Source of the DNA: Proteromonas lacertae
Lineage: Eukaryota; Sar; Bigyra; Opalinata; Proteromonadidae
Direction of reading: 5' to 3'
NCBI GenBank assembly: GCA_002245135.1
Contig: NGBS01000002.1
Span: forward strand, 310,001 to 374,000
Length of the DNA: 64,000 nt
Part shown: one piece after another, positions 1 to 63,893 of the stretch
Layout: each line of letters begins with the position of its first letter
Numbering within the stretch: position 1 is the stretch's first letter
Translations under genes and position numbers: made by a program
The notes under the pieces: generated by a model
What the model saw: only the letters and a program-made list of their open reading frames with translations
Told to the model about the DNA's origin: nothing
Database searches by the model: none

Positions 1-3000
1 TAAATATGACTTTAATTTATTCTGGAAATGTGGTAATAATATACTGTAGATTGATGTTTCGTTAATACCATATTCTAATTCAATTACTTTATAGTTAAAG
101 TAAAATGGTAATTCTTTATTCAATGAATCTAAGAACATACTGCTTGGTGTATTTCCTTTCAATGTAAATAAAACCATTTCATATTTATTCTTAGAATATT
201 CAATCATAGTATCTTTTATTAAACTGACATAATTACCAGGATCAATTGTATTTAATAGAATGTTATTATTACATAACTTCACATCGTCAACATATAACAA
301 TGAAGTAGAAATTAATAAGTTATGATTTATATCTATTTTATCCATCATTCTGCTAATCTCATAATTAGAAAAGTCACTAATATATATAACAAAATCATTA
401 CCAAAATTATGTTGTTTAACAATATTAACTAAATCATTCACTATTGTTTCATACATGACAACAATATTAATATCATATTTATCCTTCATATCAATCTTAG
501 TTTTCAATAATGAAGAATATAATCTAATAGTATAACCTTGTGGGTGAGTTTTTCTATTGATTAATACTATTTTCAATGGTAAAGCTGATGTATTTTTATA
601 TCCATTAGTTGGGATTCTCATATAATCAACAATCATCATTTTATCTCGAATAAATGGATATACTTCAAACTGATCATTTTGATTAACATCAGCTGAACTA
701 TTATTATTATTAACTCTAGATAGTATATTTGCATTATTATTATTATTATTATTACTATATTCAAACCAATTCTTTATATATTTATTCACTGTTATATTAA
801 CTACATATGGAACAGAGAATATCCAATCAGGATAAACTACTGAATCATATATATTAATATATTCTTCAGAATAGGGTATATAATTGATAGTATTGAATGA
901 ATAAACGTGATAATTATTACTAGTGCCATTTATATAAGAATTTAATATATCAATATTCATATTAATAACCAACAAATCATTATGAATTCTGGTTAGATTG
1001 TAATACTGAAAACACTCTTTACATTGATCATTATCCATTAATGTTATAATTAAATCATCTTCTTCAAGTGTATTATAAACTGCAGGACTGTATGAAGCAT
1101 TGGTTATATCAGTAACAATACTTGTCTTTAACTGATAATCTTTACTTATATTATCTATCATTAACTTTATTTTATCATTATAATCATTTAGTTTGTAGAT
1201 GAATACAAATCTTGTGTATTTATGTATTTGTAGTATTGTATGTAATTGGTAATAAATCATCATACTGCTAGACATTCCTACTTTATTTATACTCTCAATA
1301 TTATCTAATTCATCATTAGTAATGTAAGGATCAAGATAATAATATTCTATCTTTCTTTGTTTAAAGTAATTACCTAATAATGCACCACAATCATTATCTC
1401 CATTACTCAATACTGTTAATATATTATCATTATCAATCTCATCAAACTTAGAGATTATATTATTACAATTCTGAGTATTATAATTTCTATATTCAATCTT
1501 TACTACTAAATTGTAACTTGCTGCTAATGAAACATATTCATTTGTAATTGCTGTAATTTTAGTTAGAAGTTGAGAATCTGAAACTTTATTCTGATTATTA
1601 ATGCTATTCTTCTTAATGTCTAATATAAATATTCCTTTTGTATATATTATTGGACTACACTTTGATTTACAATCACACTGTAATGGATATATATAATTGG
1701 GCTGTAAGAACTCCTGACTAAATGCTGAATTGTAATTGGCTGTATTATCTACAGTGATTTCATTATAATTAGTAACTCCTTGTAGTTTAAACAGTGATGT
1801 TTGATGTTGTAATATATTATCAGATGTATAATATAAATCACCCTTTGGCGCATAGTTTAATCCAGTTTCTTTATTACCATATAAATCATAAATATTCTTT
1901 CTTAAACAATTACTGAAATCTTTACTTTGTTCATGACAATCAGTTAGTAATTTTGGTACAACCAACGAACATGTCAAATGTACAATAAACATACGTTCAT
2001 TGTAATTAACTTGATTAAACGTATAACTTATTAAATCCTTCATTATTTCTGCATACATCTTCTTAGAATCAAAGATTGTAGTTGAAAATATATTCCACAT
2101 AGTATGTGCACCACTTTGTTTATAATCTTCTAATAATACTTTTGGATCTTCACTTATATGTAATATATTCAATTCAATACTTAGATTCTTAACAATGAAC
2201 TTATTAATAAATGAACTTCTACAGTTTGTATAATTATATGGTAAATAAATAATCACATCTGTTATTTTATTAACATTATCTGGTAATAGATTCTCATCAA
2301 AACTACAAGTTATTGGATCAATTAACACTGCAGTAGACACTTGTTTATTCCAACTCTTTACTTTAGCATTGATTAAATCAACAGCTAATTTACCATCATC
2401 AGTATCAACAGTAATAACCACATACTTTTCATTATTGTTATTATTGATTCTTGGTACATTAGCATCATAATATTTCATATCTCTTAATAGGAAATTACCG
2501 GTATACATAATATTCTTATCACACTGTTGTCCTACCAATGAAGATGTTGATATTAATAACGAATTACTGTTGGATATGTCATCTAAAATAACCTTTGGAA
2601 TTGGAGTGTTGAATATCCATACAAATACACCAAAGCAACTACTGTTACTACTGAATAAGAATGAATGAATAGCGTTAATTACCTTACTACTATCATTACT
2701 AATCCAAATATAAGGTAATGCATTATCATCTAAGTGATACAAGGTAATAAATAGTGTATTAATCTCCTGATAATGGTTTTTATTATTATTGGTCTTCATT
2801 TCATCTAATCCAATAAAGAATATCTTGTTATATTTATTATCTACATCATTTGTGGCTGATATTATCTTCTTATTACCATTTATACTGCATATTGTACGTT
2901 GATAAGAGGGCTGTAATAATCTATCTTCATTATTGAATGTATAAGTTGTTTTTTCTATTACTAATGGGTAGTATAAATTGTTATAAACATCATTATCATC

Positions 3001-3951
3001 TCTTAATGTATAGATGCTGTATTTATTGTGCAAATAATTAGATAATATTTCTTTATTATCTACGTAATATTGCTTAATTAAATTCTGGAATAATGGTGTA
3101 TAAAACATATGTAATGTTGAATATATCTTCTTCACTATATTCAAGTATCTAATGTAAGCATCAATACTGCTGTACTTAAAATGAATATCTTCATAACGAT
3201 CACCTTGATGTTGCTGTATTGCCATTGGGAAATAAATTGTATGAATACCCCAATAACCTCCTTGATTCTTTGATCTATTTAAAATCTCTCTCTGAGTAAG
3301 GAAATCTAAAAATACATAACGGTTCATTGAGTGGTATATATTATTAAATATTTTATCGATAAAAATATTCTTTTTCTCCATTGAAACGATTGTAATTCCA
3401 TTACCATATTTTGATTTGACAGTGGCACCATCATCAATTGGGTAATATGGACATGCTAAACCAGCTACAGCACAATAATTACTTATCCATTCATATTCAG
3501 GTGGTGGAGTGGAATCTTCACCTACAAAGATAATTGGACCATCATATGTGAAATACTTAATAACTATTTAAATTAAATAATATAAAAATGTAATATTTAT
3601 ACTGATTTCATAGGGAAAAGTGGGATTTCCAGTAGAATATACATTAGGAAGGCAGCCACTATATTCATCCATAATAAATACACTGTTAGATGTTGTATCA
3701 ATAGGTTGATTTACAAAAGTACCTGAATGGGTATAAATAACAACATCATTAACAGGACTAAAGGATTCGTTAGAACATTTGAATAAAAGATTAATATTAC
3801 TTTGATGTTTAAATACATTTGAGTAAACTCCTGATAAATAGGAAATAGACTCTGAAGTACACTCGTTCGTCTCTTTGTTTAGCACAATATAAAGGCTTTT
3901 ATCTGCAGCAACCAGTGAGATAAGTAAAAGCAGCAAAATTAATCTGTTCAT
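1..3951 (-). CDS. tandem Venus-flytrap (urea/amide-binding-like) receptor protein, 3' part outside window
   Basis: Begins at ATG 3951 with a clear signal peptide (MNRLILLLLLISLVAA). A 39-nt intron (3564-3602, phase 1) is followed by an uninterrupted frame to the window edge, giving 1,304 codons so far. The translation holds at least three complete flytrap-like units and part of a fourth. Unit boundaries are marked by Cys-rich junctions such as QCDCKSKC near 1,670. Units carry a Cys-Asn motif (VGQQCDKNIMYTG near 2,520; KLCNNNILLNT near 260) like the EGxECSxNxxYTG signature of bacterial urea/short-chain-amide ABC substrate-binding proteins (UrtA/AmiC type). The same module builds the receptor at 17.4-29.1 kb, so the two are paralogues. 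The domains should face outside the cell. Whether a 7TM domain follows cannot be seen because the 3' end is missing. Ligand unknown. Confidence 0.8.
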
Positions 3952-4635
3952 ATCTAAAACAGAATGATTTTATTTTATTAGAATAACTGCAATTTGACCT
4001 TTGACATGTATTTTGGTCAAATTACTTTTTTTGCATTTCTATTTTTTCATCGCCAAACAGATGATATAATATACTTTTGAAATGTTAATTTATCTAAGGT
4101 TGTTGTATGTTATAGCGGTTAGTTTAGTAATGATTTATTAAGCTCAGAATTTAGATGATAATGTATATATTATAATATAATCATGGATTTGTTTTACTTA
4201 TCATTTTGCTTACTTTTAAAGATTTTTAATAGCCAGATTAATAACGATTTTTATACATTTACTGTAAACTTCGTCGCTTGTCCTGGCAAAATAGATTTTG
4301 TATTTATCTGATTCTTTTTACTTGTTTATGGTAATTTAGTTATTGATAAATACATTCATTATTTTAATTTTATTGTATAGATTCAGGCATAGATGAGGTG
4401 AAACGTCCTGATGCTGTAAGTAGAAGATGTGAAAGCATTTGAGTGAGGTTCAGTAACTTTTGTAAAATGATAATTTAATGTTTTATTTGTCAGTTTAAAA
4501 ATGTTGTTTGTTGCATAATGTAATTCATATCTCAAATAATTACCACATCTATATTGGCTATGTAAAGATATTCTTTATTTTTATTTTCAAGTCAAAGCTT
4601 GACAGTTTGGATCTTTAATTGGGATTTTTGAAAGA
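3952..4635. other. divergent intergenic region
   Basis: About 680 bp between two divergent genes, very AT-rich. A short frame from ATG 4183 (DLFYLSFCLLL...) starts like a signal peptide, and a peptide-like stretch near 4,390-4,441 could be a second exon, but no splice joins them in frame. No gene is called. The segment next to 4636 should hold the Hsp110 promoter. Confidence 0.4.
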
Positions 4636-17415: not shown

Positions 17416-20400
17416 ATGTATCAGAAGTTGGTGATAATATTTTATCTGATATACTTTTGTAGTGCTGATGCTATTACAAGACCATTTATATACACTGATA
17501 CTTTATCTACTGAAATGGCTGCTATAGTTGAATACTTTGGAGCTAAGAATAATAAACTTAGGTTTGAATCAAAACAGATTGATAATTCTGAAGATACAAT
17601 CAGTAAAGAGTTTTTGAAAATTAAGAATGACGGTTATGACACTGTTTTCGCATACATACCCGATGCCAACTTTACGATGATCAATCTATATGCAGCTAAG
17701 TATAACATTTATGTGTGGAATGCCATAATAATTCCTGATGACGCATGCTTTACTAACATCATATTTGGATATGATTTCCCTCTTACCAGTCTTAAAAGTA
17801 TATATATTTTATATTTTATATCATATAATAGTTATTTCTGAAAAAGTTGAGACCATGAAACATTTTGGTTATGCTTACGATTCTACCAAAATAAATAAAA
17901 ACTATATTGCTTATCTTAAAAAGACATTAGATTTTCTTAGAATAACCCCAGAAATAGAAACAGATACTCCATCTTCAGATACTTCAGCAAAGGAGATAAT
18001 AGACAGAATTGATATTGCCAATTTAGGTGGTAGTAATTTCATTTTATTCAACTATTACGATGATACTAAATTAATAAAAGCATGGTACGATAATTCAAAC
18101 AAAGATAAAATTACATTAGTCAATATGGAAACTCATGATAGAAAAACTAATCTAATTCCTGAAGCAGAAGGTTCAATGTTTCAACTTGCAAATGCTATTC
18201 TACCACAAGAATTCTTTGATGAAGTTAATAGTAAATTTGATCTTCCAAATAATAACAAAGTTGATAGCGATTTCAATGAAGAATCAATCATTTTGTTTCA
18301 GATGGGTAATTTGTATTATAAAATAGGAATGGAATATTTAGACAGTGATTTCAGTAGAGGTTATGAAATAGTAATAACAGCCTATGGTATTCCAGATATG
18401 ACTGATATAAATGGAACAAAAGTAACAATTGTCTCATCCAATAAACTACAACCTGTAACTCAATCAGGTTATTATATAAGTGATGGTAGTGGTAGTGTGA
18501 AGGTAGATACAGCGACTGATTATACTCCTTCTACAACTACTACTTATACATATGTTGATGGATTTCCAATTGAAAACATATGTGATGTACAAGATAATCT
18601 GATTAATCAAAAGACTGATAAATTATCGTATGTTATATTTATGACTTATAAATCACAAGTGTCTGATAATCCATTAGCAAAATATGAAAAGTATTTGATT
18701 GATGCATTAAATGCTGGTATAGAATATATTAATGAAAATGTATATATTTGTTATTATTATTTATATTGTATAGATGAATTTATTAGATAAAACACTATAT
18801 GCTATACATATCGACATTACCACCAGTGTAGAAAATGCATATAAAGAATTTAAAGAAAGATATACAGCATTTGAACCAATAGCAATATTCAGTTCAGCTG
18901 AATATGACTATAGAAATGCATTTCTTTCAAAGTTAATAAATGATCCAGTTGAATCTTCAAGTGGTGTTTCCAGTAGTAATATATTTTACATTCAAATCAT
19001 CCCTAGTAGTGGTAATGAATGTAAAAAGAATGTAATGTCTGGTATTAGTTTATATTCATGGTGGAAGTATGGTTTACAAATATTAGCTGAAGAATTACCA
19101 TTTAGGAAGTTATTTATAGCTTATGCTGAAAATGATGTATTCTCCAGTAACTCTGCTGTTGGTATTACCAATCTTACAACTGGTACAGGATCATTTACTA
19201 AAATTGTATCATTTTCAATGGAAGATGCTAATGTAGAACAAGCTCAGAATATATGTGGTAGTATATATAGTGAATGTCAACCAACATCAGGTTGTATTAT
19301 TGTGAATGTATTACCACGAGACTATCAAGAGATATTCTTTAAATATTATTATGATAAACGTTTAGATCCAACTATGTATCCAGTAGTTGCAATGACTTTA
19401 GATGAAGCAATAATCGAGAATTCAGGTCATCCAGAATATTATGATCAACAATATATTATTCAATATTATATTGATGATATAAATACTACTGTTGTTGATG
19501 AATTTAAAGGTTATTTATACAGAGTAAACACTTCTCAAATTCCAAATGTAACACCAGAAATGGGTTATGCATATACTGCTGTTAAGAATTTAGCAAATGT
19601 ATATATATTATTTATTTATTTATATATTTAAATAGATTATTGAATTAGCACAATCATTCTGAACTATCAAAGATATCAGCAATGATTAGATACTCCTCAG
19701 CTTTTGATGAAGTGGGTGGTAAAATAGAATGGAATGATCAAGGTTATATCAACTGTGATTTACATTTCGCAAAATATAATGCAACTGAAAAGAGATTTAT
19801 TACATTATCCTCATCACCATATATTGAACAAACTAATTCGTTCAATGATATATCCAAGAAATGCGATTGGTTTAATGGTGTACAAACTGCTACAGATTTA
19901 TATGACGTCATATTCTTATATGTAACTGATGATTATGTTGGTGATTATTTAAATGATTATAGTAAAAATGCTAATGTTATGATTGACTTTGTTAATAATG
20001 CTGGTGGTATAAATGATAAACTATTAAGAGTAACAATACAGATATTTAACAGTATTAAAGAATTAAAAGATTATGTTAGTTTACATGCAAAAGATGAAAA
20101 TATTTTAACATTTATTGGAACGACTTCAAATGATCAAAGAGATGCAATTCATGATATTCTTGTGGAAAATAATAAATTCTTATTTAGTATACATCCAAGT
20201 GAAGGTGAAAGGTGTTATAGTAATGTCATTCAAGTTGGAAGAGTTCCAAATCATTATGTTAACTCTCTTGCAAGTTTTGCGTGGAGAAAAAGTGAAGATA
20301 AAAAGGTTGTGCTTTTAGCTTATGATAATCCATTGCCTACAAGTATTGTCTATCATGTAAAAGTCTATTTTGATACATTCAGATTATTTAATAGTACATA

Positions 20401-23400
20401 TTTCATTTTAGGTGATAATTTGACTTTAGATCAATTTGTAGATAATATAACTGAGTTGTATGGTACTGATAAAGAAATTGTTATTGTAACTGCAATTGGA
20501 CAATATACTAATGAATTATTAGATAAATTAGATGGGACAAAATACTTCTTGTTTGTGTTAGATGGAAGAAAATTATTTATAAAGAGTGAACGTTGGATTG
20601 GTTCATACTTAATGTCATCGTATTTACCATCGAATACTAACTCAGCTAATACAATTTTCATTAAAACTTTTCAATCTGAATTTGGTACAAATATGCAGTT
20701 ATTGAATGAAAATGCACTCAATATCTATACATCCTTAATGTTCCTTAAGAATGCATATTCTCAAGCAACAGAATATGAATTTAATGAAATTAAAAGACAA
20801 TTAACTCAACTTACACTTAATTTACCAATTGGTGATAATATTGAGATAAATGCTAGAGATTATACAGTAACTAATTTCTATCATATATCAAAAATTGAAG
20901 ATGCAACTTTAGATATGAAAGAACAAGGTACAAATATTGTTGGAATGGTTGTATCACCATATTTACAATATGTATATATATTATTATTATTTATTTTATT
21001 ATAGAGATTTGATGAAAATCCAGGAACATGCGTATTACCTGGTTCTACAGCTACAAAATCAGAGACAATGTATATAATTATTAAACCAGAACAAGATATT
21101 GTCTTTATGATGATCAATGCGTATTGGTTTACATATTCAGTTGGTACTTCCAATGGATTTACAAAGATTTATTGTGGGGAATTTAATGCAACAGATTTAA
21201 CAGCATCTGATATGGTTATAACCTCATGTCCAACTGAAGAACAAGTTCAAATGACTAAAGATAATGAAAATCTATTAATAGTATCGGTTATTGATAAAGG
21301 GTATGGTGATTGTAATAATAAGATTGTTGATATTGGTACATTTCCTAGTCAGAGAATTATTCCATATGTTTCTTATATTGTTACATACTTTTCAAAGAAT
21401 GTTATGCTTATTTTACCAAATTCAACTACATACGAAGAAAAAACAGTATTAAATGAGACTATTATTCAAATGGGTGGTAGTATTAAGGATGTGTTAGTAG
21501 TTCCTGATGAAGATGATGTTAATAACACTAAAGTGTTATTTGATGATTTTGTATCATCTTATCAAGTTTCAATACCTGATGGTGGTGTATTTATTAATTA
21601 TTTAGAAAAACAATCCTCCTATGAAAGTCTATTTAAATCTTACTACCAAATTATGAAGAATGAATTTGATTCCATGGGTGATGCTGCAAAGAAATATACT
21701 ATATTTAGTTGGCATACTGCAAATCAAGTTTCATTAGATATTGATTTGATTGAAGGTCATTTCATGTATGCTAGTAGTTATGCAGATAGTGAAACTGCTC
21801 CAGATATATATGCAGTTGGTACAAATGTACTTGGACCATCCTATGTGTCTGAAAGTATTCAATCTAGAGTGTTATCTGCTTATGAATTTTTAAGACAAGC
21901 ATTTTATGTAACAGGCACATTTAAAGGAGATATAATGTGGGAACATATTTCCAATAATGAAGTCAGTAGTCCATTTGGTAATTTGAAAATGAATAAGAAT
22001 GATACTGGTATTACATTCCCAATGTATGTAGTTCAATCAACTAAAGAGGATGAAGTAAGTCATGTGAAAAGATATGCATTATTATCTAAAACATGGCCAG
22101 CTCAACAGTTTAGAAGAAGATTTAATGTATTTAATTATGCAATTTGTAACAAGTTCATTGGTAATGGTGAAATATCTGTTATTGATGCTATAAAGTTCTT
22201 AATTATATTACCATTATCAGGAAGATTATCATATTTTGTCAATGCATATGTTTCTGGTTATTTAGTAGCAATTGATTATATTAATGAATACTATGGAGGT
22301 ATTAAAGGTAGAATGCTTATACCAGTAATAGAGAATAGTGATTCAAATGCAGAAAATGTTAAATCATTGTTAAGAAAAGCCAAATCAGAACATAATACTA
22401 GATTAGTATTTGGTTTAGGTGAATCAAGTGTTAGAAAGAATGTACAGTCAGTATTAAAAGAAGAAGAATTATTATTATTCTATCCAGCAAGATATGAAGG
22501 TTTTGAATGTTTTAAGAATGTTATTTATATGAGTCCTCCATTTACTGAATATATAGCATCTATTATATTCTTCTATGCAAGATTAAGTTCTGATGTTTAT
22601 GTAATTTATTCTGATACAGTCAGAGATACTCAAAATGCGTATAATACTCAAGATGAACTTAGAAAAAGAGGAATTAGTGTAGTGAATATGCTTAGAATCC
22701 CGTTAGAGAATTACAAAATTGATATTATATTGAGTATTATCGTAAATGAAATGAAATCTGGTATTATTGCATCATTTTTAGATGGAAAAGCTTCTACAGA
22801 TATATTCACAGCTTTATATGATAGTGGATATGATTCAAGTACTTATGTGATTTATTCATTCAATATTCAAACAACTGATATTACAGATGAATCAATATAT
22901 CCATATTTAGATGGTCATTATTTTGTGGAAGGTTTAAATATTAAACTATTCCATACTAATGCTATTTCTGATTTAGATAAGTCAAGATATTCATATATTC
23001 AAGAAGAAGCTTCCATGCCATCAATATTATCTGTTATCTTTGCTACAAGAGCATTAAATGAAACTGAATTCACTAATGACACAGTTCCTTATTCGTTAGA
23101 CAGTGTGTTACATGCAATTCATCATGTCAATTTGAGTGATCTTATTGATAATGTTACTATTAATACGAATAACCAAATATCATTGTATTATGAAGTATCA
23201 AAGATTATATATAATCCAGAAGATGGTAGTTATGTGAAAGATAGAGTAGCTCATGTTAATAGAAACCATAATGTTAATCCATATTACAGTCAATATAGTT
23301 TAGAAGGTATTGTATATACATGTGATTGGTCATATAGTCATGATAATGTTACTAATACAACAGAAATACCAACAACTACTTTATATAATAGTGATGAAAT

Positions 23401-26400
23401 ATCCACTGACACTGAAGAAGATAGTGGAGATGATGAAACATTTAGTAGAGGAAAAATAAAACAAAAGACCATAAATATCGCTTTATTATATGAAATAACC
23501 AGTTTAGAAAATTCACAATACAATATTAGAGCACTAGATATCATGATTGGTGTAATAGACTCAATTAATCAAGAGAATTTATTCAATGAAACATATTTCA
23601 ATTACATTATATATGATGTATCAGATGAAACTAATTTGACCAATATAGCAAAAGCAATTGTAGCAGATAAGACGATCGTATTAGCAATGGGTTGTTATGA
23701 TGATAATTGTAGAACGACAGTCTCTGAGATATTCAACGATGATAATAATGAAAGAAAACTAAGTTTGTGGTTCCCAGGTCCATCATCAGGTGAAGAATGT
23801 AATAAATATACATTTTATACAGGTTTAGTACCATCTACCTATGTCAAACCATTATCATCATTCTTAGATCAAGTGAATAGTAATAATCTGATATATTTAA
23901 TAGGTGAAGATACTGACAATGATAGAGTGCTTCATAATATATTATTAAATGCATATGAAGGATTACATACATCAATGGGTGATAGTTATATTGAATCTGG
24001 TAGTAGTGGTTTGAGTTATGCAGTAGCGAATACAATAATAGCAAAGTGTCCAAGAGGATGTACTGTTATATCAACTTTAGATAGAACATCAACTATTGAT
24101 TTTGTTAATTATTTTGATACATTAATTACCACTTCCATGAAAGATTTATTCAATGTGATTATACTTGAATTAGATCAAGATATTGTTTCATCATTTAAGA
24201 TAAGTGGTAATGTTCACTATTATATAGGTGCATCTTATTTTGAATCTATTAATCCTACCTGTGCATTCATTGAAACAATCACAGAGAATTACGGTACAAT
24301 GACTTCTAATGAACTAGCTCATAACTCCTATTTATCATTAAGAATATGGACAAAAGCAGCATCTGTAGTTGGATATACAGACAGAGAAGCTTTAAGAAAA
24401 GAATTATATTCATTGACTTATGAAGGATGTCTTACTACTGTAATGATGTTTAGTAATAACCATTTATCACTACCTTATTACATAATGGAAGTTAATAAAG
24501 ATTTAACATTATCTGTTGCTTATAGTCAAACAAGAATACAAGAACCATTAGCTTGGAGTTGGGATTTAAAAGAATCTGATGGTAAGATTTGTGACTGGTC
24601 AGCTACTGGTGTTGGTGAGAAAGGAAGTGTCGAATTGTTTACAATTGCAGTTGCATTGTCAATCAGTGGTGCTTATAGAGATATTGATATGTATGTATTG
24701 AATATATTTGAGTTAATATTTGCTGATTTAAATAACAACAAGCAAGGATTATTAAGTAAAAGAGTAACTGTTCAAAGTTATGATATTGAATCTAATGATA
24801 ATATATGCGCTAATTTATTGAAAGAATATTTACATGATAAAGAAGATGGTAAAGGTGATGGAGTTATATTTACATCAGCATCCTCCTCATGTATTAGTAT
24901 GATTTCATCAGAGTTGATTGAAAAGGATATTCCAATGTTCATTATAGGTTATACAGGAGGTGAAGAATGCTATGATAATGTGTTTTATATTCAAAAAGAA
25001 CCAAGTTTTGTTGATAGATTAATTGATTTTATGATGGTTCCATCTGATCCAAAATCATTAACTTATTGTGTTATTGCTCCAGCTGATGCTATGGGACAAG
25101 GATATTATGATTATATTATTAAATATCTCAACTTTGTTGGTGCTGTAGTTGCTTATGGTGATAAAAATAGTAAAGTTGATAGTGATGATTTCTCAATTAC
25201 TGTTACAAATATGATTGATCAAGCTTCTGATGGATGTAATATTCTATTCTTAGGTAGTGTAGCAATGCATGTTACTTTAGATAAAGGCTTAACAGATGCT
25301 AAAGTAGATAGAAGTAAATTCCCTATTATTTCATTAACAACAGCATCAAATGCAGCAGTAAAAGGAGTTCATCCATTCTATTCAGCTCAGAATTATTTCA
25401 CTAATTTAGAAGGTGAATTAAATCAACAAATGAAAGATGATATATTATCTGTTACTACTTATGTGACTGAACCTATGTTTGTGTCTTATGTAATATCAAA
25501 GATGTATATAAATGCTGTAAATACTTTAAAGAAATCAAGTGCAGTTGATATAAGAGAGTATTTATATACAGCTACATTTGAAAGTGCAAGTGGTGAATTA
25601 ACTATTGGCTATAACAATTATATGAATCATTTCATATTCTTTGGTTTAATGAAAGAGAATGATCCTGAATATGGATTTGATATAGTGTTTAAATCATCTG
25701 ATATTCATAAAGCAAACACATGGAAGCATTTAATAACTAGTGGATTCTATAGATGTAATTTCCACGATACAGATGAAGGTAGTTCGTATATAGAACCATC
25801 TATTTCAATTGGTATTCTTACATCCTACAGTGGTGAGTATAGTACAACAGAAATATCAATAACCAGAGGTATAATGCTAGCAGTAAATCAATTGAACAAG
25901 AATGGTGGTATATTGAATAAGAAAATTGATATGGTAATTAGAGATGCTAAATCTGATATTAGTTTGTATGTAAAGTATGCTAAGGAATTAACAAGATTAG
26001 ATAATGTTGTATTAGTATTTGGTGGAAGTAGAGCTGTAATATATGAAGAATTAACACCCTTCTTTGAATCAAGTAGTAAATTATTCTTCTTCACTGGTAT
26101 TGCTACAACAGAGAATTGTCCAAAGTACAGTTTTAAAACGCAAATGACTGTTAGTCAAATGGTAAATGGTGTATGGAAGTATATATTACCGAATGTTGAT
26201 CATGTTTATATTGTTCAAGATTATTCAAAATTAAGTCAACAGTTTAGCAGAGGTTTAGATATATTATGTGAAAAGATACAATTAGAAACACACGTTTTGA
26301 ATCTTACATGGATTGTTGATCCATCTAATGAATTAGAAGAAATAAAGAAAGAATTCCCATTTGATACATTAGATAAAACAAGTGCGATTGTATTGACAGT

Positions 26401-29134
26401 AGAAGCTGAGAATAATAAACCAATTTTAGATTGGTTATGTAATAATAACTTTGTTGCCAGTAAAACATACGTTGTATCTGCTACTTTGGATAGATATTTA
26501 ATGGAATTTATATCTGCAAAGTGTTTAGCTGGTGCTTATCTATTAACTCCATTTATTAAAGAAATGGGTTTATCCACATCAGATACAACTACTTATTTAT
26601 CATCAGCATCAGAATTTGTAGAGAATTTCTTAGAGAATTTTGGTGATATGGAACATATAACAGCTTCTACAGAAAGTGGATATTCAGCAATCACATTATG
26701 GTCAGATGTAGTAAGTGCTTATACCATGTCATTTGATAATGATAAAGTAAGAAGTGCATTATATGGTTTTTCAACAGTTATTCCATCTGGAAGTGTAGTA
26801 ATGAATTCAAATGGTTTTGCTAGTAGAATTATATACTTGTGTTTAATAGGTCAAGATAAGAGTATCTCTGTATATGATTATGCAGCTAGTAATGAAGAAG
26901 GTGAAGCTTGGAATCATGTTTATCCTGAGAATGAAGGTTATATCTGTGATTGGTCAACTTCTGATGGTGGTCATGAGAAATACAGACCAGATTCATTAAA
27001 GATATTGTTCTTACATGAAACTAATGCGTTAAGATCAAAAGAAGTTAATTCAATGATAATGGAATATTCATTAGTACAAGATATTAACTCTGGTGGAATA
27101 AATGGAAGACAAATAGTTCCAATATTTATATTTGCTGATGCTTATGAAGATTTTAAGAATGCAACAACACCATATTTAAAGGATGAGGAAGTAGTTGCAT
27201 TATTTGGTTGTAGTAATAAAGGTTGTAATGAAAATGCTAAAGAATTTGCTGCTGCTACTGGTACATTATGGATGTATTATTCAAAATTAGAAGGAAATGC
27301 TTGTTATGGTAATAGAATAGCAATTAGTTCAACTCCAGCACAAAGATTCTTATCTGCTGAGTATTATTTAGATTCAATAGGTGTAAGAACATTGATGTTT
27401 ATAGGAGATGATAGTGCAGTGATGGATAAATACTTTAATACGGTTTATTATTATGTAAAGAATCATTATAATACAATGAAACAAACAGTTAGTAGAATTA
27501 CAATTAAAGATAAAAGTGAAATTTCAAATGTATTGACTAATATAAAGAAGAAGAAAGAGAATGATGATATTGATAGAATTGGATTATTATACTATCTCTC
27601 AGGTACTTTGAGTAATGATTTTATATCTGCATATACCAGTAATTCATTCAATAGTCGAGAAATATTAATTGTGTTTATGAATTATGTTAATGGTGATTAT
27701 TCATCCACCGCTTTATCTAATATTTATGGTTCTTTGGTTATTAATTCATTTGATAGTATTATTACAACAGCTTTATCTCAATCATTTGTCAATGCAGCAC
27801 AAGGTTTCTTAGGTATTACAAAAACTGTTGATGAAACTATTGAAGCAATTAAAGATTCATTTGTAGTATGGCAGACTGTATATACGACATCATCAACAGA
27901 TTCTAGTAAAATCATTCCACCAATTAGATATATGCAGTTATCTGCAGTTAATTTACAAGTAGATGTTCCATCAGGTTTATTATTAATTGATGAGTCATTG
28001 TACGTATCTAGAAACTCATTTATATTTGAAATCAATCGTAATGCTAAGTTTATTCAACTGTTCCCATCCAGTGGTTCAAATCATTTATTCAATTCTGATG
28101 CTTATCCAGAAGGTTTACCAGATGAATGTAAATTTGGAAAAGATCAAGTATTCCATAAGTATGATGATGCAATTTTAGGGTTAAGCTATGCATTAATGGC
28201 AATATCATTTATATTTGGTATTTCATGTTTAATATTCACAGCAATTCATAGAAAGATGAAAATTATAAAGACATTAGGTAGAGCTCATAATTATATGTGT
28301 TCAATTTCAATTATTTTATTATCAATTTCATCAATACCAATTACATTATATCCATCAGATGATGGTATAGTTTGTGCTGCAAGAGTTGTTTGTTTAGGTA
28401 TAGCTGTAAAAGGTTTGATTGGTACATTCATGGCGACTGAAGTGAAGTTATATATGAAGAGTAGAAGAGTTGGTAATTCAACAATTAAGAAAACTAAAAT
28501 ACCATTTACATTAGTATTGTCTTTTTGGTTAGGATTTATAGTATTTGAAGTGTTGATTGTGTTATTATGGTTCTTAGTTGATCCTAATCAATACATGGAA
28601 ACTGAAAGTGTATCTGAAAGTGATTATTTCAATGTTGTTAAAACAAGAGAATGTACAATTTCAACTCCATTTATAATAATTGAATTAGTTTCTGATTTTG
28701 TACCAGTTGCATCATTATTATATATGTCAAATGTAACAAAAGCACTTGCTAATCAACACAATGATTCATTTGGATTGTTTATATCTTCTATTGTTGTAAC
28801 TATACTTGGTGCTATTATGGTATTATTGGATTTCAACATTAATACTGATCCTGATTCAGTGTTATTGCTAAGATCAATGGGTATCCACTTAACAGGAATT
28901 ATATTAGCGTCGTTGTTGTTTGGCTTAAAGTTGGTTAATTTATACTTTGATGAAGATGCTAAAGATTTGACATCAAGTGGAAGTGCTGGTGTAAATGCAA
29001 CTGGTCTAGGTTCTGTTAAATCTACAAGTAAGACTTCTCATAAATCTCTTTCAAATATGTCATTTACTACCAATTTATCAAAGACATTTAATACACAAAC
29101 AAGAAGCAAATTTACAACCCTTACTAAACAATAA
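17416..29134 (+). CDS. giant class C GPCR with nine tandem Venus-flytrap domains
   Basis: Five exons (17416-17797, 17832-18739, 18774-19598, about 19649-20971, 21005-29134) give about 3,855 aa. A signal peptide (YQKLVIIFYLIYFCSADA) is followed by nine periplasmic-binding-protein-like modules of about 390 aa. They end at Cys junctions ICDVQD (~377), KCDWF (~776), TCVLPGS (~1155), ICNKF (~1526), TCDWS (~1918), ICDWSATG (~2341), RCNFH (~2730), ICDWST (~3126) and ECKFG (~3521). Modules share the signature seen in EGERCYSNVIQVG, GGEECYDNVFYIQ and SGEECNKYTFYTG, as in UrtA/AmiC-type urea or amide binders. Residues 3530-3790 form seven helices with the class C Cys pair (ARVVCLG in helix 3, RECTIST in the second outer loop). 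A short Ser/Thr-rich tail follows. The exon 3-4 junction has a frame problem (see findings). Ligand unknown. Confidence 0.88.
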
Positions 29135-60683: not shown

Positions 60684-63600
60684 ATGAACAATCTAGACGA
60701 TAAACATTCTAATAGTGAGTAAAACTGATAGAAAAAATTGATTAAATGAAACGATCAAAAAATATAACGACAGTTCTTCTTATCAAATTTTAATCATTTG
60801 TTAAGGATAATCAATCCTGTAAACGATATATTTATAGAAAGAATATAATATAAATACAATGTATTGGATTACATTGATATAATTGATAGGAGTGAGGGGA
60901 TTGACAAATCCACAACAAAACTTCAAGCTCTTCCTTCCACAAATAAAAGAGCCAGTAAAGTAACAACTCCACAAAAACCAAAACAAGCACAAGAATCAAG
61001 TCCTGTGAAACTTCCTGATATTAACTCAGCAAGAAAGTCTAGAACTGATAAAAAGTATTTATATCTATTCAATAATTTAATGAAAACAAATAGATCTATT
61101 CACAATCCAAATACATCAGAAAAGCTTAATACTATTGCTTCTAGTACAGTTATAGACAATTCAAATACAATAAGTCCTGCTCCACTGCGTAAATCTTCGT
61201 CTCTAAAGGCAGCAAAAGCGAACATAGAATCAAATGTCAAATTACCTTCTCCTCACAATAATGACAATAGAAATGAAAAAGAAGAAGTAGAAGAAGAACG
61301 AGGAAAACGTGTACCCTTATTAGGTATAAGTCCTTCGCAATTAGGAGTATCTTCCGATAAAAAAGCTCCAAAAACTGCTAAAATCCGTGCATTATTATCT
61401 AGTGCATTAAGAGATCATTTTTTATTTTCTAAAATAGGTCCAGACATGGAAAGCGCAGTAATTGATGCTATGGATTCAATGAGTGTACCTAAAAACACAA
61501 TGATCATAAAAGAAGGAGATATTGGAGATAATTGCTATGTAATAGAAAAAGGAACATTCCATTTCTTCGAACAGGCTCGAGGTAATGAATTAGTAAATCA
61601 ATTAGGATCAGGTTCAATATTTGGTGAATTAGCACTACTCTATAATTGTCCAAGAACAGCATCAGTGAAAGCAGCAACTGATTGTAAGGTATGGATATTA
61701 GATAGAGTAGCATTTAGAGCAATATTAGCACATTTATCAGAACAAGAATTGTTACAAGCCAAAGAGACACTAAGGTCAATAACTAGTTTGAAATTACTAA
61801 CGGATGAACAATTATCACATGTCGCAGAAGTTGTACAATTCACAGAATATGAAGATGGTGATGCAATTATTGAAAAGAATGTTGAGAATTATGTAGTTTA
61901 TGTAATACAAACTGGTAAAGTGAAGAAAACTGAAGTTGGTAAAGATAAAAAGAATGTTATTACTGAATTAGAACCAGGCCAATGTTTTGGCGAAGAAAGT
62001 CTCTACGAGGAATTACCTACTTACAGTATTGATGCAATAGGTGAAGTATCCTGTTTATGTTTTCATCAAAATGATTTTGTAAGAGTTGTTGGTAATTTGA
62101 AAGAAGTATTAGATCATAATAAACGTATTAATGCATTAAGATCAATTCCAATATTACAATATCTATCAGAAAGTGATTTAGAACAATTAGATGAAGCATT
62201 TGAAGTTGAGAATTATGAAAATGGTTCATTTATAGTAAAACAAGGAGAAATAGGACATAAATTCTATATTATACAAAAAGGAAAATGTAAGATCACTAAA
62301 GTAGTCGATGGAAAAGAGGAAATTCTCCGTACAATCAGCGACGAATCAGGTGGATATTTTGGAGAATTAGCATTACTTCATGATGATACAAGAACTGCCA
62401 ATGTTATTGCTACAGATGGTAAAGTATCATGTTTTGTATTGAATCGTAAATCATTTGATCGATTATTAGGTTCTATGAGAGATATTATGAGCCAGCATTC
62501 AGTTATGAGGACACTACAATCAGTATCTTTATTCCAAACACTTACTATAAAAGAATTAGAAGTAATGGCACAAGCATTTAGAATAAGACATTATAATAGA
62601 AATGAATATATTATGAAACAAGATTCTCCTTCTAGGGAGTTTTATATAATTAGTGAAGGTACAGTTGCATTAACTAAAGTAGAAAATGTAAATAATAAAG
62701 AAACTGTAAAGAGTGTTGGTCAATTAACAAGTGGAGATTATATTGGTGAAGTTGGTTTAATATCCAATGAAATTAGAGATACGAATGCAGTCGCAGAGAC
62801 AGAAGTGGAAGTATTTGTATTAGATGCTAAAGATTTCAGTACACTTTGTGCTCCAATGGTTACTAAACTAGAAGAATGTTTAGCTGAAAGTAAGAATGCA
62901 AATTCAAAGGTTCACATTGACAGACAGAATTATATTAAATCCACCACACTGAATGACTTTGATACTATTGCACTACTAGGTACAGGTGTATTAGGTAGAG
63001 TAACACTAGTTAAATTAAAGAAAACAGGGGAAGTATTTGGATTAAAAGCAATGTCAAAAGTAGCAATTGTGTCAAAGAAACAACAGAAAGCAGTAACCAA
63101 TGAAAAGAAGATATTATTAGCTCTAAATCATCCATTTATATTGAAATTATATAGAACCTATCAAGACAGAGATAGAATCTTTCTACTAATGGAATATGTT
63201 CAAGGTGGTGAACTTTATGGTTTATTAAGGAAATCTAATAAACATCGATTAAGAAGTAGTAAAGCAAGATTTTATGCTGCCTCTGTAATATTAGCATTGG
63301 AATATATTCATAGCAGGAAATTGGTACATAGAGATTTAAAACCTGAAAATATATTGATTGATAGTAAAGGCTTTATTAAATTAATCGATTTTGGTTTTGC
63401 TAAAGAAATCAAAGATAAGACTTATACATTATGTGGTACACCTGATTATCTTGCTCCTGAGGTTATTCTAGGTAGAGGTTATAATAAAAGCTGTGATTAT
63501 TGGTCAGTTGGTATTTTGATCTTTGAAATGTTATGCGGTCGTCCACCATTTAGAGCATCACAAGATGATAAATTATTCCAAAAAATTACTGAAGGAAACT

Positions 63601-63893
63601 ACGAATTTCCACCGAAATTTAGTGATTTTGGAGCTAAAGATATAATACAGAAATTTTTAGTGTTAGAACCACAACACAGAATAGGATGTTTAAAGAGAGG
63701 TATTAGAGATATTAAAGATCACGTTTGGTTCAATGGATTAGATTGGAAGTCGTTGTATCGTAGGAAGATTGAAGTACCATGGGTTCCACAAGTGAAAAGT
63801 GATTGTGATTATACAAATTTTGGTTGTAACGATCCTGAAGAACCAATACCAAAATATGTAGATGATGGAACTGGTTGGGATAAAGATTTTTAG
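60684..63893 (+). CDS. cGMP-dependent protein kinase-like (PKG), four cyclic-nucleotide domains
   Basis: Main exon 60890-63893; a 35-nt first exon from ATG 60684 joined by a 171-nt intron (60719-60889) fits in frame, giving 1,012 aa, but that intron is far longer than the rest. Four cyclic-nucleotide-binding domains: D1 phosphate cassette FGELALLYNCPRTASV (~256) intact; D2 FGEESLYEELPTYSID (~378) without the phosphate-binding Arg; D3 FGELALLHDDTRTANV (~501) intact; D4 IGEVGLISNEIRDTNA (~629), Arg kept but context altered. AGC kinase from ~700: GTGVLGRVTLV, AMSKVAI, HRDLKPENIL, DFGFAK, CGTPDYLAPE, and an AGC tail. RTA/RTAS contexts favour cGMP over cAMP. This is the order of alveolate PKGs. 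Cytosolic or membrane; cGMP source not in this window. Confidence 0.85.

Follow-up and report, generated by a model that had tools for sequence, protein, structure and literature searches.

The 64,000-nucleotide stretch of Proteromonas lacertae contig NGBS01000002.1 analysed here (positions 310,001 to 374,000 of the forward strand, hereafter the window; GC content 24-36% per 2-kb step) carries a gene at 17416-29134 (+) whose product combines a tandem array of flytrap-type binding modules with one class C seven-transmembrane (7TM) domain. Joining of five exons (17416-17797, 17832-18739, 18774-19598, 19649-20971 and 21005-29134) gave a protein of 3,855 amino acids (aa) without an inner stop, which bore out the coordinates and the length of about 3,855 residues proposed in a first-pass annotation made from the sequence alone. 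The four introns, all GT-AG and 33-50 nt long, lie within the first 3.6 kb of the gene. Removal of intron 1 (17798-17831, 34 nt) restored the frame, and introns 2 (18740-18773) and 4 (20972-21004) measure 34 and 33 nt. Intron 3 (19599-19648) has an uncertain acceptor: the one at 19648 keeps the frame and makes the intron 50 nt long as read, compared with 33-34 nt in its neighbours. A shorter version with the acceptor at 19635 was rejected because it broke the frame, and the region 19599-19660 may reflect an allele, an assembly error or the true acceptor. Downstream, one unbroken frame of 2,709 codons (21005-29131) encodes modules 4 to 9 and the 7TM domain. The first 18 residues (17416-17469) resemble a signal peptide, as judged by their hydrophobic stretch rather than by a signal predictor, and the translation ends in a putative cytoplasmic tail rich in Ser and Thr, with the stop codon (28967-29134).

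Cuts placed at a recurring cysteine divided the protein into a 7TM piece and nine others 372-423 aa long, in keeping with the module pitch of about 390 aa first proposed. Five of the nine module ends have D/N and then W/F after the cut-site Cys. On the plus strand, module 1 (M1; aa 19-378, 17470-18583, split by the intron at 17798-17831) was placed by its position, its length and a C..N motif, the results with hidden Markov models (HMMs) and hhalign not being significant. It is followed by M2 (aa 379-777, 18584-19864, split by introns 2 and 3), M3 (aa 778-1155, 19865-21031, split by the intron at 20972-21004), M4 (aa 1156-1527, 21032-22147), whose N-terminal part is divergent, M5 (aa 1528-1919, 22148-23323), the position with a family-conserved pocket, M6 (aa 1920-2342, 23324-24592), which has a linker rich in Thr, Ser and Asp ahead of it, M7 (aa 2343-2730, 24593-25756), M8 (aa 2731-3127, 25757-26947) and the membrane-adjacent M9 (aa 3128-3521, 26948-28129).

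In a Pfam scan, a check that the first-pass annotation had proposed, M3 (73.6 bits), M5 (109.7), M6 (92.4), M7 (56.1; Peripla_BP_6, 62.4), M8 and M9 (60.6) exceeded the Peripla_BP_5 cut-off of 27 bits, whereas M2 and M4 stayed below it at 20.2 and 20.8 bits and M1 had no flytrap match. An independent HMM was built from 70 full paralogue modules that included no window sequence, with 200 shuffled modules as the control. It matched M2-M9 at E values of 2.8e-16 to 1.3e-61 (M2, 1e-27; M3, 5.4e-42; M4, 2.8e-16 over residues 60-369 of the piece) and none of the 200 shuffled modules. M1 was not matched by this HMM; it reached an hhalign probability of 7 of 100 at best against the position groups, and in direct comparison aligned with the first module of the relative P0004 no better than shuffles did. 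All nine modules of P0004 (3,886 aa, one open frame) were matched, the first at E 1.3e-12. As a result, eight of the nine modules claimed at first are established in the window gene and the ninth is inferred from its place and length, with P0004 as a further ground; nine is the right number for the receptor family. The modules are also of the UrtA/AmiC-like kind that had been suggested. In an NCBIfam scan covering M3-M9, UrtA (TIGR03407) ranked first for M3 and M5-M9, always far below its cut-off of 492.75 bits (best, 107.5 bits for M8), and M4 had no match. The window modules are 10-20% identical in pairs, so they were rightly described as anciently diverged rather than recently duplicated.

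The 7TM domain (aa 3522-3800, 28130-28966, +) scored 70 bits against 7tm_3, above the curated cut-off of 33.5, and is the single class C domain that was expected. The match starts 11 residues past the M9 boundary, with no Pfam match to a Cys-rich domain between the two. Class C G-protein-coupled receptors (GPCRs) have a Cys-rich domain between flytrap and 7TM, which is absent in GABA-B. GABA-B was the nearest family by profile: A1, an alignment of 16 rows (the window protein and 15 other paralogues), matched GABA-B2 with up to 95 bits, GABA-B1 with 68-77, GPR156 with 64 and mGlu2 with 63. The window 7TM used alone matched only mGlu8, weakly (E 0.03). Two columns of A1, C474 and C567, are invariant and appear, with the helices placed by eye, to be the class C cysteines at the top of transmembrane helix 3 (TM3) and in extracellular loop 2. 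The 7TM, these cysteines and the flytrap fold place the protein in class C as far as its sequence indicates; characterised class C GPCRs have one flytrap per chain, and this chain has nine modules. All 15 other rows have KAWRIH in the loop after TM3; the window protein has another sequence there, and the consensus of the window protein and the relatives P0001-P0003 likewise lacks the motif. The altered loop may reflect a different choice of G protein or a partner role. The genome does contain G-alpha genes, with 12 matches.

The genome (50.2 Mb, 1,181 contigs) gave 132 matches to 7tm_3, a figure that includes exon pieces and near-identical contigs and is not a count of genes. From the 26 best-scoring 7TM places, 20 loci were read and six were skipped as apparent duplicates or fragments. 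Module strings lie ahead of the 7TM in 19 of the 20. Among array loci intact at their contig ends, 15 of 16 showed eight modules, whole or in part, in the 10 kb read, and L010 showed seven; three loci cut by contig ends retained four, five and six. Three loci extended upstream reached nine modules, the first being only partly seen; the five arrays traced to their start all have nine. Peripla_BP_5 gave 683 first-look candidates, of which 112 were scored; 106 of these lie at most 11.5 kb upstream of a 7TM place on the same strand, and at least 58 of 107 places have such a match (25 of the 132 7TM rows were left out). The window gene belongs to a large family of this genome whose members share the array, a context beyond the view of the first-pass annotation, and a close relative from another source has the array as well. 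Paralogues of the window subfamily are 49-58% identical over M9 and the 7TM, and several are near-copies on separate contigs. Receptor places of near-equal score were seen on C304/C914/C1021, C842/C859/C1106, C134/C1000, C18/C957 and C1113/C1163, and could be haplotypes or recent duplicates. The one locus read that has no array, L024 (110-4594, -), encodes a 1,494-aa protein whose class C 7TM is accompanied by three filamin stretches rather than flytraps.

A collection of 5.8 billion proteins was searched for relatives. With the M9 and 7TM region of the window gene as query, 7,616 candidates contained three long relatives; with that of L012, 6,245 candidates contained four. All of these belong to one source class. 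P0001-P0003 are 51-52% identical to the window protein over 76-99% of this region; among the sequences compared, the window gene comes nearest to them (43-45% over about 2,400-2,700 aa), the window's nearest paralogues standing outside this comparison, and they may be its orthologues or its paralogues. P0005 and P0007 are 80-83% identical to the paralogues L020 and L016. The frames of P0003 and P0006 end within the 7TM, and P0006 has a low-complexity Ile/Tyr tail that resembles a retained intron. No single-flytrap relative was found at E 1e-10 with profile A1 among 7,998 candidates scored, a search limited by its word filter and length window.

A FastTree phylogeny of 94 modules (window, paralogues and P0001-P0003) and two UrtA sequences, labelled by position counted back from the 7TM, required nine label changes, the fewest that ten labels allow, whereas 200 shuffles required at least 57. 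Positions 3, 4, 5, 7, 8 and 9 formed pure clades, as did 14 of 15 position-6 modules; positions 1 and 2 had one member each and were uninformative. Wherever a position profile exists (positions 3-9), the modules of P0004-P0007 matched that of their own position best. Modules at the same position in different genes are closer than modules within one gene. These results show an array of old origin that was passed on whole, with position identity for positions 3-9.

The urea contacts of UrtA are W120, S122, Y141, Q144, E146, Y190, N246 and S274, according to passages of PMC10392092. At the corresponding columns, the residues of the window modules and of their relatives depart from those of UrtA and also vary by position. 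Position 5 retains most, with W in 6 of 11 sequences, Arg at the R125 site in all 11 and Glu at the Glu146 site in 8 of 11, but the Asn246 site is Ser in 10 of 11. At position 9, the Gln144 site is occupied by Arg in 11 of 19 sequences and the Glu146 site by Asp in 12 of 19. Most sequences retain the Cys of the UrtA C150 site at six of the seven positions from 3 to 9, the exception being position 3; its neighbouring Gly is lost in most sequences at position 7 and in over half at position 8. An array of nine equal urea sensors was ruled out by these residues. Mean pair identity was then compared between the whole module and ten columns of the pocket, in which S274 is represented by two alternatives. 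The position-5 pocket reached 0.40 vs 0.24, a value equalled or exceeded by 4 of 300 random column sets. Positions 4 (0.33 vs 0.25) and 3 (0.31 vs 0.25) were higher in the pocket, positions 6 (0.21 vs 0.28) and 7 (0.18 vs 0.26) lower, and positions 8 and 9 near the mean. Within the group of four formed by the window protein and P0001-P0003, the values were 0.69 vs 0.42 at position 5, 0.62 vs 0.46 at position 7 and 0.15 vs 0.42 at position 6. With a deep alignment and seven positions tested, this pattern is a lead, namely a pocket that may be shared at position 5, variable at position 6, and variable in the family and steady in the subfamily at position 7.

We consider it probable that the gene encodes a single-chain class C GPCR-type chemoreceptor with nine UrtA/AmiC-type flytraps and one GABA-B-like 7TM. 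The signal peptide would send the nine flytraps outside the cell, where they would close on small solutes, at a guess small nitrogen compounds such as amides or amino acids. The 7TM of known class C receptors is switched on when the flytrap closes within a dimer. Closure at position 9, which is joined directly to the 7TM, would likely drive it in the same manner, upstream modules would act through their neighbours, and the 7TM would then activate a heterotrimeric G protein. The position-5 pocket may serve a common cue and the others, position 6 above all, cues specific to each paralogue; since the former is shared and the latter vary between paralogues, each receptor would report common as well as specific cues.

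Several observations weigh against this proposal. No position keeps all urea-contact residues of UrtA, position 5 coming closest, so some or most modules may bind nothing. The conservation at position 5 has a nominal p of about 0.013 with seven positions tested, positions 3 and 4 are also above their module mean, and the position-7 pocket is variable over the family yet conserved in the window's group of four. By sequence, M1 lacks confirmation in the window gene and M4 is degenerate. P0004 is 87% identical to the paralogue L022 over 1,840 aa, so its source is a close relative of this organism and the conservation seen is short-range. The different loop after TM3 makes G-protein coupling by the window protein itself doubtful. 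An AlphaFold2 model of M9 and the 7TM failed, with a predicted local distance difference test score of 44 from a four-row alignment, and was not used.

Four other explanations were weighed. The replacement of most UrtA contact residues outside position 5, the degeneracy of M1 and M4, and pocket columns at positions 6-9 that are no more conserved than other columns would all fit a chain that is mostly stalk, in which one or two flytraps (positions 5 and 9, for example) bind and the rest are spacers that lift the site or serve adhesion, as the long ectodomains of adhesion GPCRs act as spacers. All seven testable positions nevertheless remain distinct and in order, the C150-site Cys persists in most sequences at six of these positions (even where, as at positions 7 and 8, the Gly is often gone), and a mere spacer could vary in number, whereas nine modules recur without change. 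We regard the stalk as possible, although on the unlikely side. The missing KAWRIH motif and the separate paralogues of the window subfamily would also suit a ligand-capture subunit without G-protein coupling of its own, partnering the main subfamily as GABA-B1 does GABA-B2. Such pairing is putative, however, the loop change could merely shift the preference for a G protein, and the comparison covers 15 other paralogues only; we think this arrangement rather improbable.

The first-pass annotation had considered a multi-ligand or avidity receptor. Of the two, avidity, in which nine copies of one specificity would make the receptor more sensitive to a single ligand, is the less well supported because the pockets differ by position. 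The modules tested do share one fold type with UrtA as best-scoring relative, but their low mutual identity and their closer resemblance to same-position modules of other genes make avidity very unlikely. Its counterpart, a nine-input receptor in which each ancient position-specific flytrap would read a different small molecule and one 7TM would integrate them into one G-protein output, is a speculative and not very likely extension of the chemoreceptor reading. If true, single proteins would sense chemical mixtures, position 5 acting as the gate in common while the others are tuned to each paralogue. Adjacent genes read as one, a pseudogene or an assembly fault could be suspected from intron 3, in frame only in its longer form, and from several paralogue frames interrupted within arrays. 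Such an artefact is hard to credit given six modules and the 7TM in a single 2,709-codon frame, nine modules and the 7TM in the 3,886-codon frame of P0004, and the similarity of P0001-P0003 to the window protein. A query with the last module and 7TM of L015 likewise found 70 matches in its own genome, of which 38 cover at least 90% of the query and 34 of these 38 are stop-free.

Elsewhere in the window, 1-3567 and perhaps 3571-3969 (-), continuing in C1160:302501-310000 (L046), probably encode the N-terminal part of a second receptor of this kind, whose 7TM lies outside the window. Within the window, its divergent modules gave weak signals (E 4.8e-5 and 0.14) and nothing in Pfam or in the whole-window module scan. 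At 60864-63893 (+), a single frame carries a protein kinase domain along with four cyclic-nucleotide-binding stretches, presumably a PKG-like kinase. In the genome, tubulin matches occur in opposite-strand pairs about 2 kb apart on C102, C146, C375, C573, C1005, C1155 and C1157, and one partner scores 175.1 bits on all seven contigs. Genome searches also gave a chitin synthase fragment, an 18S stretch, no COX1 and, at a single place, Fe-hydrogenase-like matches that could be the widespread NAR1.

Among known systems, passages of PMC3251606 and PMC5168858 describe families of class C receptors that carry bacterial-type binding domains in early fungi, gut fungi and amoebae. The lineage-specific families of Allomyces (78), anaerobic gut fungi, Dictyostelium and other non-animals resemble the present one in this respect. 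Passages of these sources give class C N-termini of up to 1,667 aa (PMC3251606) and, in gut fungi, of up to 1,600 aa with type II or pectin-lyase domains (PMC5168858); varied class C ectodomains are described in choanoflagellates and their relatives (PMC12716839), and no family C receptors in the ciliates surveyed (PMC9960496). A nine-fold array is not reported in the passages of PMC3251606, PMC5168858 and PMC12716839. In the parts seen of the open-licence literature searched for this architecture, no report of more than two flytraps in one chain was found, for class C or otherwise, and by that literature a class C receptor with nine flytraps would be new. The trypanosome receptor adenylate cyclases also place tandem flytraps outside and signalling inside, with two flytraps, one membrane helix and a cyclase in passages of PMC6027212.

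Closer comparisons are with the bacterial binders and with GABA-B. UrtA and AmiC share the module fold and sequence, and UrtA 7s6e contains the EGxxCxxNxxY motif of the first-pass annotation; they are separate single-module proteins, whereas here the urea contacts are largely replaced and the scores fall far below the UrtA cut-off. The GABA-B receptor shares the nearest 7TM, the direct flytrap-7TM junction and the type I flytrap fold. It differs in having one flytrap per chain, and in the comparison with M8, the only module with a predicted fold, its ectodomain ranked below UrtA and AmiC. Because the modules can be produced singly, their ligands are testable. The textbook class C receptor has one flytrap and one 7TM switch; here nine flytraps in fixed order share one switch, which raises the questions of how closure on a ligand travels along the chain and whether one protein computes on several inputs. 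The binding modules resemble bacterial urea and amide binders more than animal receptors, a likeness that bears on the origin of class C.

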